From: a virus
Virus record (IMG/VR): IMGVR_UViG_3300042502_000409
Span: 1-25,336 of that record
Length of the DNA stretch: 25,336 nucleotides
Reading direction: 5' to 3' (one strand)
The notes beneath the pieces were generated by a model, which worked only from the letters and a program-made list of their open reading frames with translations, searched no databases and was not told the origin of the DNA. Position 1 is the first letter of the stretch, and each line of letters starts with the position of its first letter. Of this stretch, positions 1,984 through 12,669 are shown piece by piece. The translations under genes were made by a program, and so were the position numbers.

Positions 1984-3669
1984 ATGTCATATGCAGATAA
2001 ACTTTCGAAGATGAAGTCTGGGGAGTTTGCGGGACGTATGGTCCTCGCAATCACTGAGACCATGACAGATGAGCAGATTAACAGTGGTTCATGGGGGGCC
2101 ATCGAGGGGAGACCTGCCCTTAGTGTCCCTTCCTTCCGGCAAGTAATTGCCCGGTTGCGCCATGAGTTCCCCGATCAGCCCGTGATTGACTGGGGTGATG
2201 ACCGTCCGGGAGTTGCTACCGCTGAGAGTTTCTTCAGCCCCTTGTGCTCATGGTCACGTAGCGGTAGGTTCGGTGAGGTCCTACGATGGGCTGTCCTGCC
2301 CTACACTCGGGCACGGGCCTTTTCCAGTTTCTCCAGCATCGCTGAATGTGAGATTGACTGGGGTGAGGGTAAAATCTCGGATGATATTTCCCCGACCATA
2401 TTCGGAGACCTTCTGTCCACCCTCACCAAGAAGGGGTTTGGCCTACTTGAAGCGGCAATGGCCTACGGTTCCACTTACGAGCCACTTGACCTAACCCTGC
2501 TCGACCCCAGACTGGTGCCCAACCCCGAGCATGTCCTCGCCAAATCCGTCAAGTTCGACGGGCTAGTGTCCTACTTTCCAGATGAGGACAAGCTACTTGC
2601 CAATCGGCGGGTTGCCTTGAAACCCGGCAAATATCTGGGGAGGTTCTACCCGTTTCTCACCCAGCCGGAGATTGCGGAATATGCCGCTAAACTGGGGTCT
2701 CCCGGCTCTCTCCACTTTGCTGATACCCCGGATGATGTGGAGTGTGTCTACCTCAACGGCCCCTCCAGTTGCATGTCAAAGCCCCTTGGCTACTACGAAA
2801 GCTATGAACACCCTGTCCGGGTCTATGGGGGCTCTCCCGACCTCAAACTTGCCTACCTCACGTCAATGGGCGGGGAGATAACGGCCCGTGCCCTTGTGTG
2901 GCCCGAGAAGAAAACAGTGGGCCGGATTTATGGTGATGCCCAACGGCTCGCCCCCTTGCTTAATGCTGAGGGGTACGAATGTGATCCCACATGGATGAAC
3001 TACTATGACCACTTGGATGGGGCGCGTATCCGCCTTATCCGTCAAGGCCGGGGTGTTGTCTGCCCCTACATTGATGGGTCCGGGACGGTCTCCGAGAGTT
3101 ATTGTGGGAAGTGGTTAGAGATTGGGGGTGGGGATATTGGCGCTAGCTCTACCGATGGCGTGATCTTCCTATCTAACCCGGTAGAGTTCTACTGCCCCAG
3201 ACTTGATGAGCACTTTGAGTTCGAAGATGAAGATGAGATGGAGGAAAACACTGTCTATGTGGACGGGGAGGATGAGACTTGGCATATTCGTGCATACAAC
3301 CGCTATGCCGCGGTATGTGCTCATTCTGGTGACGCCTTTGACCGGGACAATATGACTGAGGTTTATATGTCCGCCACACGTGCCCGGCTCTGGGGTGACA
3401 CTTACCTTGAGGGCGAGACTTGGACGTGTGATGGTGATGGCACTATCTACTCTAACTCGGTGGTGGATGAGCCCTACCTTGACGCGCTCGGTAACCTCTT
3501 GAGGGTGGGTCCGATCTTCCTACAAGGTGGTGACGATGGGGCTATCTTTATTGATGACGAGAGCGAGCACTTTGACGCGTCCGCCAACGATGGTGACGGC
3601 TACTATGTGGACAAGCACCGCTTTCAATCCCCCGATCAACTCGCCCTACCCCTCGCCAATGCCGCTTGA
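1984..3669 (+). CDS. Large early phage protein with degenerate C-terminal repeats, unknown function
   Basis: A 561-residue acidic soluble protein. From memory, the middle (KPGKYLGRFYPFLT near 210-225; NGPSSCMS near 258; ITARALVWPEKK and GRIYGD near 299-318; ARIRLIR, PYIDGSGT) belongs to a family of uncharacterised phage proteins. The last 170 residues contain about three repeated blocks beginning YCPRLDEHFEFED, VCAHSGDAFDRDNM and WTCDGDGTIYSNS. They resemble zinc-ribbon modules in which most cysteine pairs have been lost. ATG 1984 follows AGAGGGAATACCT, and a CCTACCA motif lies 18 nt upstream of it. The peptidase gene starts 14 nt after its stop, so the two probably form one operon. No catalytic motif is evident. 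Confidence 0.75.
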   Translation: MSYADKLSKMKSGEFAGRMVLAITETMTDEQINSGSWGAIEGRPALSVPSFRQVIARLRHEFPDQPVIDWGDDRPGVATAESFFSPLCSWSRSGRFGEVLRWAVLPYTRARAFSSFSSIAECEIDWGEGKISDDISPTIFGDLLSTLTKKGFGLLEAAMAYGSTYEPLDLTLLDPRLVPNPEHVLAKSVKFDGLVSYFPDEDKLLANRRVALKPGKYLGRFYPFLTQPEIAEYAAKLGSPGSLHFADTPDDVECVYLNGPSSCMSKPLGYYESYEHPVRVYGGSPDLKLAYLTSMGGEITARALVWPEKKTVGRIYGDAQRLAPLLNAEGYECDPTWMNYYDHLDGARIRLIRQGRGVVCPYIDGSGTVSESYCGKWLEIGGGDIGASSTDGVIFLSNPVEFYCPRLDEHFEFEDEDEMEENTVYVDGEDETWHIRAYNRYAAVCAHSGDAFDRDNMTEVYMSATRARLWGDTYLEGETWTCDGDGTIYSNSVVDEPYLDALGNLLRVGPIFLQGGDDGAIFIDDESEHFDASANDGDGYYVDKHRFQSPDQLALPLANAA

Positions 3670-3683
3670 AGGAAACCCTACCA

Positions 3684-4643
3684 ATGCAAGAACTACTTGA
3701 CATGCTGTCCTACCGTAGGCCAGCGTTCTCCCGCCATGAGCAGAAGTTCATTCGACGCTTCCTTGAACCTCTGGGGTGTAGGCCCGATGCTTTCGGGAAC
3801 ATGATCCTAAAGGTGGGCGAGAGCGCCGTGCTCTGGTCCAGTCACACTGATACCGTTCATTCCCAATCGGGCCGACAAGAGGTCCTCGCCACTGATGACG
3901 GGTTTGCCTATGTCCCCAATTCAGATTGCCTCGGTGCCGATTGCACCACTGGGGTCTGGATCATGATGGAGATGATCCGGGCCAAGGTTCCCGGTCTCTA
4001 CATATTCCACCGGGCTGAAGAGACTGGGGGTGGTGGTTCAAGCCATATCGCTGCCAAAACGCCCCACCTACTCAAGGGCATTGATTATGCCATTGCCTTT
4101 GACCGTAAGGATGTGGGGTCCGTAATCACCCATCAGTTTGGCACGAGATGTGCAAGCGATGCTTTCGCTGCGTCCTTTGCCGCAGTAGTTGATCTACCTA
4201 TGAAGGCTGACGATGGTGGGACGTTCACTGACACTGCAAACTACACGGACCTCATTGGTGAATGTACCAACGTCTCGGTGGGCTATTACAAGCAACACAC
4301 CCGGCAAGAGTATCAGGACCTTGAGTTCGCTATGGCTCTACGTGACGCTATGATCGTGTTCGACGAGTCCCGCCTTGTGAAGCAGCGTGAGGCCGGTGAG
4401 CCTGATCTTGACTGGAGCAGGGATGACTACTCCACGCTCAACTGGAGGCGGGCTGTGTCCTACACGGATGACTATGGCCCGGGGAAGGACAAGACGGACA
4501 AACTCGCGGACCTTGAGCGTATGGTGCGGTATTACCCCGCCGCCGCCGCCCAAATTCTGGCGGATTATGGCGTCAGTGCGGATGAGGTTCTTGAAGCGGG
4601 GTGCGGCGAAGGTGACACCTATGGTAGGCGCTATGCCGCTTGA
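3684..4643 (+). CDS. M20/M28-type zinc metallopeptidase
   Basis: A 319-residue co-catalytic zinc peptidase-like enzyme, probably cytoplasmic because there is no signal peptide. The metal-site pattern looks complete: SHTD (H54, D56), LGADC (D86 as the bridging Asp), EE (E112 as likely general base and E113), D140 in IAFDRKD, and H205 in KQHTRQE. These match the H-x-D, D, EE, D, H order of M20/M28/M42 enzymes. The C-terminal 100 residues are a helical extension. ATG 3684 follows AAGGAAA and a CCTACCA motif; a TTG 18 nt upstream overlaps the previous stop and is less likely. Family members hydrolyse small peptides or acylated amino acids; the substrate here is unknown. It is an unusual enzyme for a podovirus early region. 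Confidence 0.82.
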   Translation: MQELLDMLSYRRPAFSRHEQKFIRRFLEPLGCRPDAFGNMILKVGESAVLWSSHTDTVHSQSGRQEVLATDDGFAYVPNSDCLGADCTTGVWIMMEMIRAKVPGLYIFHRAEETGGGGSSHIAAKTPHLLKGIDYAIAFDRKDVGSVITHQFGTRCASDAFAASFAAVVDLPMKADDGGTFTDTANYTDLIGECTNVSVGYYKQHTRQEYQDLEFAMALRDAMIVFDESRLVKQREAGEPDLDWSRDDYSTLNWRRAVSYTDDYGPGKDKTDKLADLERMVRYYPAAAAQILADYGVSADEVLEAGCGEGDTYGRRYAA

Positions 4644-5019: not shown

Positions 5020-5379
5020 ATGTCCGCCGCTGCCCTGAAACTTGATCCCCTCTTCCGCGTCCTCGATGAGGCCCGCCGAATCTACCCGTCCATGACCGTC
5101 ACCCAACTCATGGTGTTCTGTCTGGTGGCGGCTGATCCGTACATTGGGCAGGCTGATCTTGAGGTGAAGGCGGACATCTCTGACGCATCCGCCTCGCGGA
5201 TCGTCGCTCTACTTGCCCAGTTTGGGAACCGGGGAACTGAACCCCTGAACCTGATTTCACTGGACACTGATCCTAAAGATAGGCGGCGGCGTATCATGAC
5301 CCTTACCAACAAGGGTGAGCGGTTCATCCAGCGTATGTTGGAACAGTTGGAACGATACACCAACAAGAGGACCACTTAA
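5020..5379 (+). CDS. MarR-like winged-helix transcriptional regulator
   Basis: A 119-residue protein with a MarR-type winged helix. Helices around 27-40 (TQLMVFCLVAAD) and 44-69 (QADLEVKADISDASASRIVA) form the helix-turn-helix. The wing is DPKDRRRRIMTLTNKG (84-99), the hallmark of the family, and a C-terminal helix (FIQRMLEQLERY) serves dimerisation. ATG 5020 follows GGAGTAATTACC. It sits immediately upstream of the integrase, with a 17-bp perfect palindrome in the 90-nt gap. I infer that it controls itself and/or the integrase, taking the place of a CI-type repressor. No ligand or redox Cys pair is evident. Confidence 0.82.
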   Translation: MSAAALKLDPLFRVLDEARRIYPSMTVTQLMVFCLVAADPYIGQADLEVKADISDASASRIVALLAQFGNRGTEPLNLISLDTDPKDRRRRIMTLTNKGERFIQRMLEQLERYTNKRTT

Positions 5380-5469: not shown

Positions 5470-6462
5470 TTGAGCGCACGAGTAAAAGGCTCTGGCTGGA
5501 TGGCGGACTTCACCAGAGATGGCCAGCGATACCGGGAGTTCGGCTTCCAATCTGAACTTGAGGCCGTGGCTTGGGAGGCACAAGCGCGGGTGGCACTTGC
5601 GAAGGGCCAGCCCCTTCCACTTGGACCCTCACCTACCAAGACCAAGCGTCTGTCAATCCGGGATCATGTCCGGTATTGTGGGCGCACCCACTGGATGGAC
5701 CACAAGTCTGGGTCCAAGAGTACCCGCAACGCTGAACTGTTCGCGGAGTTTATCGGGCCTGATGTCCCGGTAGGCGAAGCGCTGACAACAGTGGCTATCA
5801 ACGATTACGTGGAAGAACTGAAGGCGGATGAAACCTCGGGCTCCACGATCAATCGGCGATTGGCCGCTGTGTCAGTGCTGATCCACCACGCTAAGGCCCT
5901 TGACCTGATCGACCGTGACCCACTCCTGCCTTGGCAGAAGGAGGGCAAGAACAGGCTCCGGTACTTCACCGAGGACGAGGCCAAGGCCATCATCGCTACC
6001 ACCGAGTTCTGGGGGTACGCCCATGAGGCTCGGTTGTTTCGCTTCCTGCTAGATACAGGGTGCCGCGTTGGTGAGGCTCTGAAGTTGAGTCCAAACCGGG
6101 ACATCCACCGTATCTCTCCAGAGCGCCTCACGGTGACCTTTGGAGACACCAAGAACGGCGATGACCGAACCATACCACTGACGGCTAGGGCTTATGAGTC
6201 CGCCCGTCTGGGGGGCTTTGTAGGGCTTAACAGGTGGGGCCTCCGGTCCCTCTGGGAGAGGCTGAGGACTCACCATGAGTTCATCGGTACCGCCTCCCTC
6301 CACACCTTTCGGCATACCTGCGCCAGTTGGCTGGTCCAGCGGGGTGTGGAACTCTACCGGGTCCAGAAATGGCTCGGGCATAAGAGCATGGTGACTACAC
6401 AGAGATACGCGCATTTGTCCCCGAGGCATTTGGAGGGGATGGTAGATGTACTGGAGGATTGA
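5470..6462 (+). CDS. int: Tyrosine-family site-specific integrase
   Basis: A 330-residue phage integrase. The N-terminal third has an arm-binding-like segment (KGSGWMADFTRDGQRYREFGF) and a SAM-like core-binding domain (about 62-155). The catalytic domain has all six expected residues: R199 (TGCRVGEAL), K228 (DTKNGDDR), H278 and R281 (LHTFRHT), H304 (LGHKS) and the nucleophile Y313 (TQRYAHL). The TTG start is chosen because AGGAGG lies 5 nt upstream. Integrases in T7-like phages are known from marine and proteobacterial temperate podoviruses, where they sit upstream of the RNA polymerase as here. The target is unknown; tRNA-Leu is a candidate because of 9602-9683 and 10114-10132. Confidence 0.95.
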   Translation: MSARVKGSGWMADFTRDGQRYREFGFQSELEAVAWEAQARVALAKGQPLPLGPSPTKTKRLSIRDHVRYCGRTHWMDHKSGSKSTRNAELFAEFIGPDVPVGEALTTVAINDYVEELKADETSGSTINRRLAAVSVLIHHAKALDLIDRDPLLPWQKEGKNRLRYFTEDEAKAIIATTEFWGYAHEARLFRFLLDTGCRVGEALKLSPNRDIHRISPERLTVTFGDTKNGDDRTIPLTARAYESARLGGFVGLNRWGLRSLWERLRTHHEFIGTASLHTFRHTCASWLVQRGVELYRVQKWLGHKSMVTTQRYAHLSPRHLEGMVDVLED

Positions 6463-8427: not shown

Positions 8428-8762
8428 CTGACACAACCGAACTGGTGGCGAGGCTGCGCGACCAATGGGATATGATCCAGCTTGGCGAGGACGCCTACGA
8501 AGCCGCCGACACCATCGAGCGGCTGACCCGCGAGCGGGATGAGGCGCGGGTAGCGGCGCTTGAGGAAGCGGCGGCTGCGGTTGAGCAGAAAGCTAAAGCA
8601 GTGTGCCGCCAAGAATGTTGCGGCTATGGCGTCGGCTCGCCGCCCGAATGCTGCGGAGATGCGATACTTATGGTTTCCGACAGTGAAGCCGTTGACGCCA
8701 TCCGCGCATTGAAGGAGCCGCGCATTTCATTTCCCTACCAAATGAAGGATACTACCCAATGA
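8424..8762 (+). CDS. RERDEAR-type coiled-coil protein, short paralog
   Basis: A 112-residue paralog of the gene at 6685. It opens MTDTTELVARLRDQW, contains YEAADTIERLTRERDEARVA once, and has the shared IRALKEP near its end. Unlike the long copy it carries a Cys-rich insert, VCRQECCGYGVGSPPECCGD (about 74-93), with five cysteines, likely metal-binding or disulfide-bonded. ATG 8424 follows AGAAGGA. Its last codons contain CCTACCA (8734-8740) and the GAAGGA that serves the next gene. Confidence 0.72.
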   Translation: MTDTTELVARLRDQWDMIQLGEDAYEAADTIERLTRERDEARVAALEEAAAAVEQKAKAVCRQECCGYGVGSPPECCGDAILMVSDSEAVDAIRALKEPRISFPYQMKDTTQ

Positions 8763-8902
8763 ACAGATACCTCTTCCCAATGCTCGGCCCATTGGCCGGG
8801 ACCCTTACCGCCTTTTTCATGTCAGGCCCCCTTTATGCCATGAACTTCCTGTTTGGCGCTCTGGGCCTTCTGTTCGCCGTTTGGTTGGAGGACCGCTCAT
8901 GA
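8759..8902 (+). CDS. 47-residue two-pass membrane protein
   Basis: The ATG overlaps the preceding stop and follows GAAGGA. The product has two hydrophobic stretches (about 5-22 and 26-43: LFPMLGPLAGTLTAFFM and MNFLFGALGLLFAVW) with a short turn, and ends LEDRS. It looks like a small hairpin membrane protein. It is coupled to the downstream nucleotide enzyme gene by ATGA. A holin-like role is conceivable from topology, but its position far from the lysis genes argues against it. Confidence 0.6.
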   Translation: MNRYLFPMLGPLAGTLTAFFMSGPLYAMNFLFGALGLLFAVWLEDRS

Positions 8903-9354
8903 ACAAGCTCTACATCATCGGATCACTCCGAAACCCCCTCATCCCACTCACGTCCCACTGTCTCCGCTCTCAACTCCCCGGGGTGGAAATCTTCGACGAC
9001 TGGTACGCCGCTGGCCCCGAGGCTGACGACTACTGGATGACCTACGAGAAGGCCCGGGGACGTACCTACGCTGAAGCTCTGGCAGGGTACGCCGCTCGGA
9101 ACGTCTACGCCTTCGACAAGTCCCACCTCCTGTCAGCCGATGGTGCCCTGCTCATCCTCCCCGCGGGGAAGTCAGGCCACCTTGAACTGGGCTTCATGGC
9201 GGGCTTGGGGAAATGGACGGGTATCCTCCTGCCACAGGAAGAGCCCGAGCGCTGGGATGTTATGTACCAGTTCGCGGGTAAGGTTTACCGGAACGTGGAT
9301 GAAGTGGTAGAGGATGTGGCTGTGGCTACTGTGAGTAAGGAGCGGAGCAAGTGA
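8899..9354 (+). CDS. Nucleoside 2-deoxyribosyltransferase-like protein
   Basis: A 151-residue protein with the nucleoside deoxyribosyltransferase-like fold. The N-terminal strand is YIIGSLRN (5-12), FDDWYAAGPEADD follows near 32-44, and HLELG (94-98) carries the expected nucleophilic Glu (E96) after PAGKS. D73 and D81 occupy positions typical of the family. Members cleave or transfer the N-glycosidic bond of (deoxy)nucleosides or nucleotides. In a phage this could serve nucleotide salvage or removal of a modified or signalling nucleotide (inference). ATG 8899 follows GGAGGA. Confidence 0.75.
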   Translation: MNKLYIIGSLRNPLIPLTSHCLRSQLPGVEIFDDWYAAGPEADDYWMTYEKARGRTYAEALAGYAARNVYAFDKSHLLSADGALLILPAGKSGHLELGFMAGLGKWTGILLPQEEPERWDVMYQFAGKVYRNVDEVVEDVAVATVSKERSK

Positions 9355-9587
9355 GAGATGTTCGAGGCATAAAAATCACTGTAGGTGACACGATTGCCTA
9401 CGCTGTCAGACGTAGTTCAACTGTAAACATGATGATTGCTCACGTCCTGAACGTGGCCGATGACTACATCAGGGTAAAAGTTGACACCTTAACTGTGCAG
9501 ACTTGGCGCGAATATTCTCGGCCTGTGAAGTTAAGCAACCGTCATACTATAGTGGTTCTTGATGGTGTAGGCCTTGGAGCGGCTTAG
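9351..9587 (+). CDS. Small beta-rich phage protein, unknown function
   Basis: A 78-residue protein with a GTG start overlapping the previous stop (GTGA) and AAGGAG upstream. The sequence IKITVGDTIAYAVRRSSTVNMMIAHVLNV is typical of an SH3-like beta barrel seen in many small T7-like phage proteins (from memory). No catalytic residues are evident. It is the last gene of the cargo operon; the tRNA follows on the other strand after 14 nt. Confidence 0.65.
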   Translation: MRDVRGIKITVGDTIAYAVRRSSTVNMMIAHVLNVADDYIRVKVDTLTVQTWREYSRPVKLSNRHTIVVLDGVGLGAA

Positions 9588-9601
9588 TCGCGTCGATGTA
9601 G

Positions 9602-9683
9602 TGACCCCTCCGGGACTCGAACCCGGACGCCTCTCGGCTCGGCATTTTAAGTGCCGTGTGTCTACCAATTCCACCAAGGGGTC
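9602..9683 (-). tRNA. trnL-UAA: tRNA-Leu (anticodon UAA), complete
   Basis: Read on the minus strand, all arms fold. The acceptor GACCCCT/AGGGGTC has 7 perfect pairs. The D stem is GTG/CAC with loop GAATTGGTAGA. The anticodon stem CGGCA/TGCCG encloses loop CTTAAAA, with TAA at 34-36. The class II variable arm contains GCC-GAGA-GGC, and the T arm CCGGG-TTCGAGT-CCCGG is canonical. The discriminator is A73, as expected for Leu; CCA is not encoded. It would read UUA and UUG. It faces against every phage gene here, so it needs its own promoter, and I see only a weak one. It could be a functional tRNA, a captured host tRNA or the attachment site. Confidence 0.95.
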
Positions 9684-9720
9684 TCAAACTGGCCTCTAAT
9701 CAAATGGGTATAACATCACA

Positions 9721-10110
9721 ATGATTAAGGTTTTCGTCCGGCCTCCCGGTCCCCCAACACCTGAAGGTGCCCTCCCCGCTGGATGGGTGGCTAACTCCAC
9801 CAGCGCCGGTAACCAAGCCGACCGCTGCACTGTCTCGGCGTTTTATGATGAATATGATAAGCCCTGCGTAGTTCTTGAGCCGTATCTCGGTGGGAGGTTC
9901 TACCCATCTGGTCCTAACGACCGGTCACTATCCTCATCCCTCTATCTGAGAAGCGTCAACATCTACGGGGCCACTCTCCGGGACCTCATACAGGAACTTG
10001 TTGATCTGGGGTTGGTGACACACCCGGTGACAGACAACCATAATCCTCAACCCGCCAGTGACACAGGAGTCCACCCTAACCCCTTGTTCAACAACGCTAA
10101 TCCCCGTTGA
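9721..10110 (+). CDS. Hypothetical protein, 129 aa
   Basis: A protein I do not recognise. It opens MIKVFVRPPGPPTPEGALPAGWV, has a beta-rich middle (YDKPCVVLEPYLGGRFYPSG) and a helix (ATLRDLIQELVDLGLV), and ends in a polar, Asn/Pro-rich tail. ATG 9721 has no strong ribosome binding site; TATAAC lies just upstream (9709-9714) but without a matching -35 box. It stands alone between the tRNA and the intergenic region before the RNA polymerase gene. Confidence 0.6.
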   Translation: MIKVFVRPPGPPTPEGALPAGWVANSTSAGNQADRCTVSAFYDEYDKPCVVLEPYLGGRFYPSGPNDRSLSSSLYLRSVNIYGATLRDLIQELVDLGLVTHPVTDNHNPQPASDTGVHPNPLFNNANPR

Positions 10111-10113
10111 GCA

Positions 10114-10132
10114 CAGGGACTTAAAATCCCTG
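10114..10132 (+). other. tRNA-Leu(UAA) anticodon-arm mimic, candidate att core
   Basis: CAGGGACTTAAAATCCCTG forms a 6-bp stem with the 7-nt loop CTTAAAA. That loop is identical to the anticodon loop of the tRNA at 9602-9683, and the whole looks like the anticodon arm of a bacterial tRNA-Leu(UAA). No T arm or acceptor follows, so it is not a tRNA. Some tyrosine integrases are known to recombine at anticodon-loop sites, so it is a candidate attP core. It lies 3.65 kb from the integrase gene, and a chance hairpin cannot be excluded. Confidence 0.4.
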
Positions 10133-10254: not shown

Positions 10255-12669
10255 GTGACAATCACTCAACAAGACCTCGACCAACGTATGGTGACGTGGG
10301 GCCTTGATCGTGCCCGACGCGACTTCAACAGTGCCGCTGATCGTGGCGCTCTCGGTGAGACGGCGGCTGGCATTGCTGCCATGAAGGGGGTCATTGAGCC
10401 CCTCATCACCACCATCGCTGAGAAGCTTCTGGCCGACTCCTTCGTCAGTAAGGGCAGACCCACGACGCTCTACACGTTCTGTGCCGATATGGACCCAGCC
10501 GTGCTGGCCTTCCTGACCCTGCGCCAGTGCTTCGACAGGGCTGGCCCGGGCGGGGCTACCCTGACCTCTACAGCCCGCTCAGTGGGCGCGGCTGTGGAAG
10601 TAGAGGGGATCGTCCGATCCTTCAAAGCTGCCGATCCTATGGCCGTTAAGGTGGTCGGGGAGGTTCTCAAGAAGCGGGGCTCTGGGGCAGGAAGGCGGGC
10701 TAAGGTCCTCCGGGAGAATGCCAACAGGCGCGGCCACGATACGGACCCGTGGACCAGTCGCGACCTCATCATGGTGGGTCTGTCCCTCATCGACCTGATG
10801 ATGGGCTCCTGCCGATTGTTCGAGGTCTATAAGACCCGTCAGGGCCGCAAGACCACCGACATGATCCGCCTCACCGCCGAAGCTGCCAAGTGGTTGGAAG
10901 ACCGCACGGACAAGCAAGGCTTCCTGATGCCCGCCTACCTCCCTATGATTGAGACTCCCACGCCGTGGACCAGTCTCCGGGGAGGCGGGTATCGGGGGAC
11001 GCTGGAGGGTAAGATACCCCTCACCAAGCGTACCTTCCCCGGCCAGCTTGATGCCCTCAAGACATCGGACCTTCGGACCGTCTACGCCTCGGTCAACGCC
11101 ATTCAGGAGACTGCGTGGCAGGTAAACGGGGACGTTCTCGACGTGATGAAACAAGTCTGGGACAGCGGGAGACCGTTCCCCGGGGTTACCAACCGGGAAG
11201 ACCTGCCTATGCCCCCCAAGGCTTGGACAGGTGACCCGAGCGAGGATGAGCTTCGTTCGTGGAAGTATCAGGCGCGGACGGTCTACGAGGCCAACGCCAA
11301 GGCTCAATCAGCAAGGTTCACGATGAGCCGCTTGCTGTCAGTTGCGGAGGAAATGAGAAATGCAGAAGGACTATTCTTTCCACACCAGTTGGACTTTCGT
11401 GGACGAGTTTATGGACTTCCTATCGGACTATCCCCCCAAGGACCTGACGAGTCCCGCTCGCTACTTATATTTGCTCCGACGAATACTGAAGTGGGAGCAT
11501 CACCGCCTGCTGTGGGGGCCCACTGGCTCTCCATTCACGGGGCCAATTGTTACGGTGTCGATAAAGTTTCATTTGCCGACCGCGAACAGTGGACCAACAC
11601 CCACTCCGCTCGCATCCTCGCCACCGCTTCCAACCCACTGAATGACCTCTGGTGGACCGATGCCGACAAGCCATGGAGCTTTCTTGCGTTCTGTTACGAC
11701 TTCAACCGGTGCCTCTCCGGGGTTGAACAAAGCCGCGTTCCTATCGCTATGGATGGATCATGTAATGGCCTCCAACACTACGCCGCCCTGCTCCGAGACC
11801 CCGTTGCAGGGGAAGCCACCAACCTCACGCCCTCCGAAACACCCCAAGACATCTACGGGCGCGTTGCAACTCGAACTACCGCTCTCCTACGTGATAGGGC
11901 GGAGCAAGGCGACTGGGTTGCTCGAAGCTGGCTGGACTTTGGTATCGACCGTAGGATCACCAAGCGGCCCGTCATGGTTCTACCGTATGGAGGAACCCGG
12001 ATGTCCTGTATCCAGTACACCCGTGAGGCCGTGGTGGAGTCTATCACCACCTACGGGAAGGATAACCCGTTTGGTGACGAGGTAGGTAGATACTCTGCCC
12101 AACTGGCAATGGTGATCTGGGAGGCCATCGGTGACGTTGTAGTCTCCGCTCGTGCCGCCATGGAATGGCTTCAGGGTCTATCGAGGGTCCACACCTCGGC
12201 TGGCCTCCCGCTTATGTGGCAGACACCGAGCGGGTTCCATGGGTGGCAGGCGTATGCCCAGACCAAGATGGAGCGGATCGACACCATCTTCGGCACACTG
12301 GGGCGGGTCGCTGGGGCCTACTACGGTGACCTCCCGCTGCTCGATGGTGGGCGACAGTCTCTCGCCTTCCCTCCTAACTTCGTCCACTCCCTCGACGCTT
12401 CGGCCTTGGCCCTGACCATCGCTGAGTCCCGCCGTCAGGGGATCACCCAGTTCGCCTGTATCCATGACAGCTTCGGCACCACCGCGGCTAACGCTGACAA
12501 ACTGGCGAAGATCATCAGGGAACAGTTCGTGGGGATGTACGAGAACCACGACCCGCTCCACGATCTGTGGACCAACGCCAAGCGGATGGGGCTGGACGTT
12601 CCACCCCCACCAGTGAAGGGCGCTCTCGATCTACAGGAGGTGCATAACAGCCTGTATTTCTTCGCCTGA
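10255..12669 (+). CDS. T7-like single-subunit DNA-directed RNA polymerase
   Basis: An 804-residue phage RNA polymerase (T7: 883). The palm and fingers motifs are intact: D500 in AMDGSCNGLQHYAALLRD (T7 D537), K570 in ITKRPVM (T7 K631), Y578 in LPYGGT (T7 Y639), H711 in NFVHSLD (T7 H784), D738 in IHDSFGT (T7 D812) and the C-terminal foot YFFA. FRGRVYGLPIGLSPQG and SIHGANCYGVDKV align with T7. The promoter specificity loop, between GFHGWQAYAQTKMER and NFVHS, is unlike that of T7, so its promoters should differ. The GTG start follows AAGGAGG by 6 nt. It would transcribe the replication and late genes to the right. Confidence 0.97.
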   Translation: MTITQQDLDQRMVTWGLDRARRDFNSAADRGALGETAAGIAAMKGVIEPLITTIAEKLLADSFVSKGRPTTLYTFCADMDPAVLAFLTLRQCFDRAGPGGATLTSTARSVGAAVEVEGIVRSFKAADPMAVKVVGEVLKKRGSGAGRRAKVLRENANRRGHDTDPWTSRDLIMVGLSLIDLMMGSCRLFEVYKTRQGRKTTDMIRLTAEAAKWLEDRTDKQGFLMPAYLPMIETPTPWTSLRGGGYRGTLEGKIPLTKRTFPGQLDALKTSDLRTVYASVNAIQETAWQVNGDVLDVMKQVWDSGRPFPGVTNREDLPMPPKAWTGDPSEDELRSWKYQARTVYEANAKAQSARFTMSRLLSVAEEMRNAEGLFFPHQLDFRGRVYGLPIGLSPQGPDESRSLLIFAPTNTEVGASPPAVGAHWLSIHGANCYGVDKVSFADREQWTNTHSARILATASNPLNDLWWTDADKPWSFLAFCYDFNRCLSGVEQSRVPIAMDGSCNGLQHYAALLRDPVAGEATNLTPSETPQDIYGRVATRTTALLRDRAEQGDWVARSWLDFGIDRRITKRPVMVLPYGGTRMSCIQYTREAVVESITTYGKDNPFGDEVGRYSAQLAMVIWEAIGDVVVSARAAMEWLQGLSRVHTSAGLPLMWQTPSGFHGWQAYAQTKMERIDTIFGTLGRVAGAYYGDLPLLDGGRQSLAFPPNFVHSLDASALALTIAESRRQGITQFACIHDSFGTTAANADKLAKIIREQFVGMYENHDPLHDLWTNAKRMGLDVPPPPVKGALDLQEVHNSLYFFA

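Follow-up and report, generated by a model that had tools for sequence, protein, structure and literature searches.

The 19-mer CAGGGACTTAAAATCCCTG, which an exact position check placed at positions 10114-10132 on the + strand of a 25,336-base virus record, very probably serves as attP core to a T7-like (Autographiviridae) phage that encodes an integrase, splits a host tRNA-Leu(UAA) gene, and compensates for the loss with a tRNA-Leu(UAA) of its own. The window, by which we mean the whole stretch of 25,336 nucleotides analysed, is a fragment of a T7-like phage carrying an integrase. The features that bear on this reading are the following.

5020 to 5379, + strand: transcriptional regulator immediately before the integrase gene (phrog_9665, 1.2e-19)
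5470 to 6462, + strand: tyrosine integrase (Pfam PF00589, 2.9e-20; phrog_1 integrase, 9.5e-50)
9601 to 9683, - strand: complete phage tRNA-Leu(UAA) (ARAGORN; Rfam RF00005, 58.9 bits; fold)
9721 to 10110, + strand: 129-aa ORF between the tRNA and the candidate attP, with no family match (Pfam, PHROG profiles)
10114 to 10132, + strand: candidate attP core, with the CTTAAAA loop (the expected crossover region) at 10120 to 10126 inside a 6-bp inverted repeat
10255 to 12669, + strand: T7-type single-subunit RNA polymerase, first gene after the candidate attP (Pfam PF00940, 2.8e-100)

The succession of regulator, integrase, and RNA polymerase is that of temperate T7-like phages (Autographiviridae with an integrase), and the T7-type RNA polymerase, SSB, primase-helicase, exonuclease, and head-tail connector are encoded in T7 order. 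A MarR annotation stands at the regulator's place in LUZ100, CRP-403, and RHEph01. The integrase belongs to the tyrosine family, as in tRNA-dependent lysogeny; the nearest prophage integrase (48% identity) is that of a Xanthobacter prophage splitting tRNA-Leu(UAA), and a search of viral contigs with the window integrase alone gave one distant match. Also in the early region are genes for a peptidase (3666-4643; phrog_4191), at the place of an annotated zinc peptidase in phage Pasto, and for a nucleoside deoxyribosyltransferase (8911-9354; phrog_12607). The 19-mer lies in a 144-nt noncoding gap between the stop of the ORF at 9721-10110 on its left and the start of the RNA polymerase ORF at 10255 on its right, and fold prediction gives it a 6-bp stem and the 7-nt loop CTTAAAA. 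The sole tRNA in the window, the tRNA-Leu(UAA), lies 430 nt away, and its anticodon arm has the same loop on a stem (CGGCA/TGCCG) unlike that of the 19-mer. The noncoding location and the shared loop, both pointed out in the initial annotation, were thus borne out, with the qualification that the stems differ.

Searching the 84,980 GTDB species genomes with an alignment of RNA polymerases yielded 80 T7-like loci. Integrases were sought in 30 of the genomes with such loci, the far prophage ends were then retrieved, and the host flanks were joined in silico. In 13 prophages (8 UAA, 5 UAG) the joined flanks restored an intact tRNA-Leu across the join, split in its anticodon arm by the prophage, which is where the initial annotation had suggested that the ends of related prophages be sought and which supports its reading of the 19-mer as attP. 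The UAA cases comprise Rhodopseudomonas palustris XCP, Xanthobacter sp. YC-JY1, Parvibaculum, Reyranella, and four others, and the UAG cases Rhizobium anhuiense, Rhizobium sp. BK376, Devosia, Maritalea, and Mesorhizobium; from their coordinates, the elements in R. palustris and Xanthobacter measure ~42 kb and ~43 kb, respectively. For the prophage pairs L016, L078, and L025 no junction was obtained. Cores in the 13 splitting prophages are 8-17 bp long, and the one stretch that the phage has in common with its host site in every case is the anticodon loop of 7 nt (CTTAAAA or TTTAGGT), the attP and host stems agreeing at 2-9 of 10 positions. The proposal that the core is the entire stem-loop therefore holds for the loop and a few flanking bases, which are shared, but not for the full stem, a hairpin not being general in the attP sites. 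Each of the 13 elements also encodes an entire tRNA-Leu of matching isoacceptor; it lies near the integrase, except in two site-inverted cases, where it lies at the RNA polymerase end. The candidate core in the window, 140 nt before the RNA polymerase gene, has the position class and orientation of the cores mapped from prophage ends in these relatives.

The same relationship was found among phage records and viral contigs. In Rhizobium phage Pasto (MT708545.1), the best RNA polymerase match among phage records (39% identity), the integrase gene is succeeded by a tRNA-Leu(UAA) on the minus strand, then by GGGCACTTAAAATGCTC in the gap and by the RNA polymerase gene. In LUZ100 and HTVC200P a tRNA-Leu(UAA) adjoins the integrase and is followed by CAGACTTAAAA, and in RHEph21, RHEph01, and Lo5R7ANS a tRNA-Leu(UAG) is paired with a TTTAGGT core. 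The copied loop thus matches the phage tRNA in isoacceptor, since UAA phages carry the UAA loop and UAG phages carry TTTAGGT cores. We compared 50 contigs with an integrase upstream of the RNA polymerase, 18 with a tRNA-Leu near the integrase and 32 without. The gap between integrase and RNA polymerase repeats the anticodon loop of the phage tRNA-Leu in all 18 (UAA in 13, UAG in 4, CAA in 1). The loop of the same isoacceptor together with a flanking base is present on the + strand of the gap in 17/18 contigs with a tRNA-Leu versus 5/32 without (Fisher test, 4e-8; expectation from shuffling among the 18, 0.34), a comparison in which the kinship of some contigs overstates independence. The 18th contig, L167, has a tRNA-Leu(CAA) at 8619-8705 and, within its gap (9717-9971), GGATTCAAAATC, which contains the CAA loop as a matching TTCAAAA core, and adds a third isoacceptor that obeys the rule. 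As an exact DNA pattern, the window's core with its flank matched no other record among the viral contigs. The rule for T7-like phages, that the isoacceptor of the phage tRNA-Leu is that of the loop copied before the RNA polymerase gene, predicts both attP and attB for unmapped phages. For Pseudomonas phage LUZ100 (L005), whose tRNA-Leu(UAA) lies at 2658-2743 and whose CAGACTTAAAA core lies at 3917, it predicts integration into tRNA-Leu(UAA).

A strict pattern for the 5' half of tRNA-Leu(UAA) matched exactly twice, in the split gene and in the phage copy, in seven of the eight UAA lysogen genomes; in the remaining one the split gene alone matched, the phage tRNA falling outside the strict pattern. 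No third tRNA-Leu(UAA) gene was seen in these eight genomes with the strict pattern, although it could overlook a host gene whose D arm is unusual. In the five UAG genomes the pattern gave the split gene, the phage copy, and a few matches at control level. To our knowledge, UUA is normally read by no other bacterial tRNA, and because no other tRNA-Leu(UAA) was found in the eight genomes, the phage tRNA-Leu(UAA) copy is probably indispensable in the lysogens. The compensation suggested in the initial annotation is strengthened by these genomes and by the same-isoacceptor tRNAs of the 13 split-gene relatives.

The best-surviving alternative accepts the attP but takes the tRNA-Leu to have a purpose other than compensation for the split gene, or none: it would be either a relic passively left by imprecise excision, or an aid to lytic translation or to escape from anticodon nucleases. 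The authors of the LUZ100 study, who did not obtain a stable lysogen, took its tRNA-Leu to be such a relic (PMC10134795), and a role of phage tRNAs in countering host defences has been discussed (PMC10865867). We regard this alternative as unlikely: the isoacceptor of the tRNA is that of the core in 18 of 18 contigs, the stems of the phage tRNA are unlike those of the host gene, from which a fresh excision relic would not differ, and no other tRNA-Leu(UAA) was seen in the UAA lysogens. The isoacceptor rule likewise argues for a functional reading of the LUZ100 tRNA-Leu.

That the hairpin at 10114-10132 is a chance feature, a possibility raised in the initial annotation, is very improbable. An incidental hairpin would fit the fact that a perfect stem is not general among the attP sites of relatives. 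However, a perfect 5-bp stem around CTTAAAA occurred in none of 400 dinucleotide shuffles of the whole window, and shuffling the 144-nt gap 20,000 times produced such a stem once; position, orientation, and isoacceptor match are also conserved across the family. We also considered whether the inverted repeat marks two conserved core sites for the integrase, but in the set of 25 attP sites the pairing of left with right arms was not better than that of permuted arms (p 0.11, and p 0.30 without the window), and the idea of a general rule was dropped. Arm-type integrase sites were not recognised, and shared arm-type motifs around the 25 attP sites were not clearly above shuffles.

A classical attP, in which a tRNA half beside the core would leave one intact hybrid tRNA in the host, is scarcely credible here, for although other T7-like prophages use that mode (in tRNA-Cys(GCA) of Xanthobacter and Aminobacter, and with the tRNA-Leu(UAA) 5' half in L027) and a match to the first half of a tRNA-Leu is described in cyanophages (PMC8776855), neither flank of 10114-10132 contains a 3' or 5' tRNA part by ARAGORN or Rfam, which bears out the remark in the initial annotation that no 3' half follows, and the window carries a complete tRNA-Leu(UAA), as the splitting class does. 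The window's candidate core has the loop of tRNA-Leu(UAA) and is flanked by no tRNA half; short cores with no rebuilding of the tRNA are found in the 13 related prophages. The cores of the classical-mode prophages are 17-21 bp. Those in tRNA-Cys(GCA), from Xanthobacter (L015/L199 and L029/L200) and Aminobacter (L053/L208), have an intact tRNA-Cys at one end and integrases akin to those of the splitting class. In the T7-like prophage L027/L214, integrated in tRNA-Leu(UAA), the core measures 20 bp and the tRNA at the integrase end is intact, its 5' half seemingly contributed by the phage; the integrase gene of this prophage has one in-frame stop.

The initial annotation had proposed a search for host tRNA-Leu(UAA) genes containing the 19-mer and had named their absence as grounds for refutation. 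The full 19-mer was found in 0 of 385 alphaproteobacterial genomes, its outer C-G pair occurring in no tested host tRNA, but 124 of the 397 genomes from the order that includes Xanthobacter contained the inner 17-mer AGGGACTTAAAATCCCT, a reversed control giving no match, and all 30 of the places examined were the anticodon arm of tRNA-Leu(UAA). The split tRNA-Leu(UAA) gene of R. palustris itself carries the 17-mer arm. For Alphaproteobacteria, the named absence was thus in part observed, yet sharing of the 19-mer is the wrong criterion because real cores span only 8-17 bp. The 17-mer match would be consistent with a host from the Alphaproteobacteria. Identification of the host by the 17-mer was rejected, given that in the prophage cases no more than 2-9 of 10 stem positions agree between attP and host; since stems vary among the prophage cases, the 17-mer names no host. 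Neither the phage's own host nor its prophage ends were found, so that the attB of the window phage is a predicted one.

From the sequence of the core loop we infer that the gene split by the window phage would be tRNA-Leu(UAA), and, by analogy, that this phage would act as its relatives do. The integrase would catalyse recombination between attP and the tRNA-Leu(UAA) gene of the host, strand exchange most likely taking place within the 7-bp anticodon loop CTTAAAA, and because attP has no tRNA half the host gene would be split on integration. The 5' half of the host tRNA would come to precede the RNA polymerase gene of the phage (10255-12669), which would become the gene at the prophage end, and the 3' half would lie beyond the integrase and the phage tRNA. 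The tRNA-Leu(UAA) at 9601-9683 would then supply the lost essential tRNA, and its different stem may make it a poor target for the phage's own integrase. Among the relatives, the stem of the phage tRNA is not always less host-like than that of attP.

A strong hairpin resembling an intrinsic terminator follows the core in 14 of 25 attP sites (L003, L005, L010, L014, L019, L020, L030, L034, L039, L040, L057, L111, L156, and others), compared with ~3 in shuffled flanks, and none precedes it. These hairpins lie between attP and the RNA polymerase gene, 64-120 nt past the core loop, mostly at 72-76 nt (~74 nt); after the window's candidate attP no clear terminator was found. In most of these lysogens the host tRNA promoter would face the RNA polymerase gene, which a terminator at this place would thus insulate. 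It is possible, as a tentative suggestion, that integration in this phage family is part of the lysis-lysogeny switch, the tRNA swap being coupled to silencing of the polymerase.

The mechanism is already published; the window is very probably a new, distant, UAA-using member, and the mechanism here holds across a whole family. tRNA-dependent lysogeny was named and proved in mycobacteriophages by Guerrero-Bustamante and Hatfull in 2024, who asked how common it is outside phages of Actinobacteria (PMC10865867). As is predicted here, the mycobacteriophages Fionnbharth, LeBron, and Gaia combine a tyrosine integrase, a core of 8-17 bp in a host tRNA that is not rebuilt, and a phage tRNA of the same isotype; Gaia uses tRNA-Leu-CAA with an 8-bp core (PMC10865867). 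They differ in being unrelated phages of unrelated hosts, in using mostly tRNA-Lys or tRNA-Ile, and in that their need for the tRNA has been shown by experiment, whereas that of the window phage is predicted. In the temperate Rhizobium T7-like phages vTRX32-1/RHEph01 (Paadamvirus), a 12-bp core, CAGATTTAGGTT, in a host tRNA-Leu was described in 2021; the tRNA-Leu of these podoviruses replaces that of the host, and the absence of the motif from the phage tRNA would bar self-integration (PMC8631192). We recovered the same 12-bp core independently from prophage ends (L072). That system uses the UAG isoacceptor and the window UAA, and the two are distant relatives, their RNA polymerases being about 35% identical. 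The tRNA-Leu of uv-Fonsiphage-EPL is stated to replace a lost host function (Chen et al. 2019; PMC6811365), and the pelagiphages HTVC011P and HTVC025P share the tRNA-Leu site according to Zhao et al. 2019, as cited in that article. On this account, the Pelagibacter and Fonsibacter T7-like phages resemble the window in using a host tRNA-Leu site and a replacing phage tRNA-Leu, and differ in using tRNA-Leu(TAG) and SAR11 hosts. Pasto shares with the window the integrase, the minus-strand tRNA-Leu(UAA), and the CTTAAAA copy before the RNA polymerase gene, and differs in its core stem (GGGCA/TGCTC) and in its integrase (32% identity). In the context of replacement tRNAs, Mesorhizobium phage Lo5R7ANS (L004) carries two adjoining genes annotated as "tRNA splicing ligase" at 8855-10050, between its tRNA-Leu and core and the RNA polymerase gene, and this pair may provide for tRNA repair alongside the replacement.
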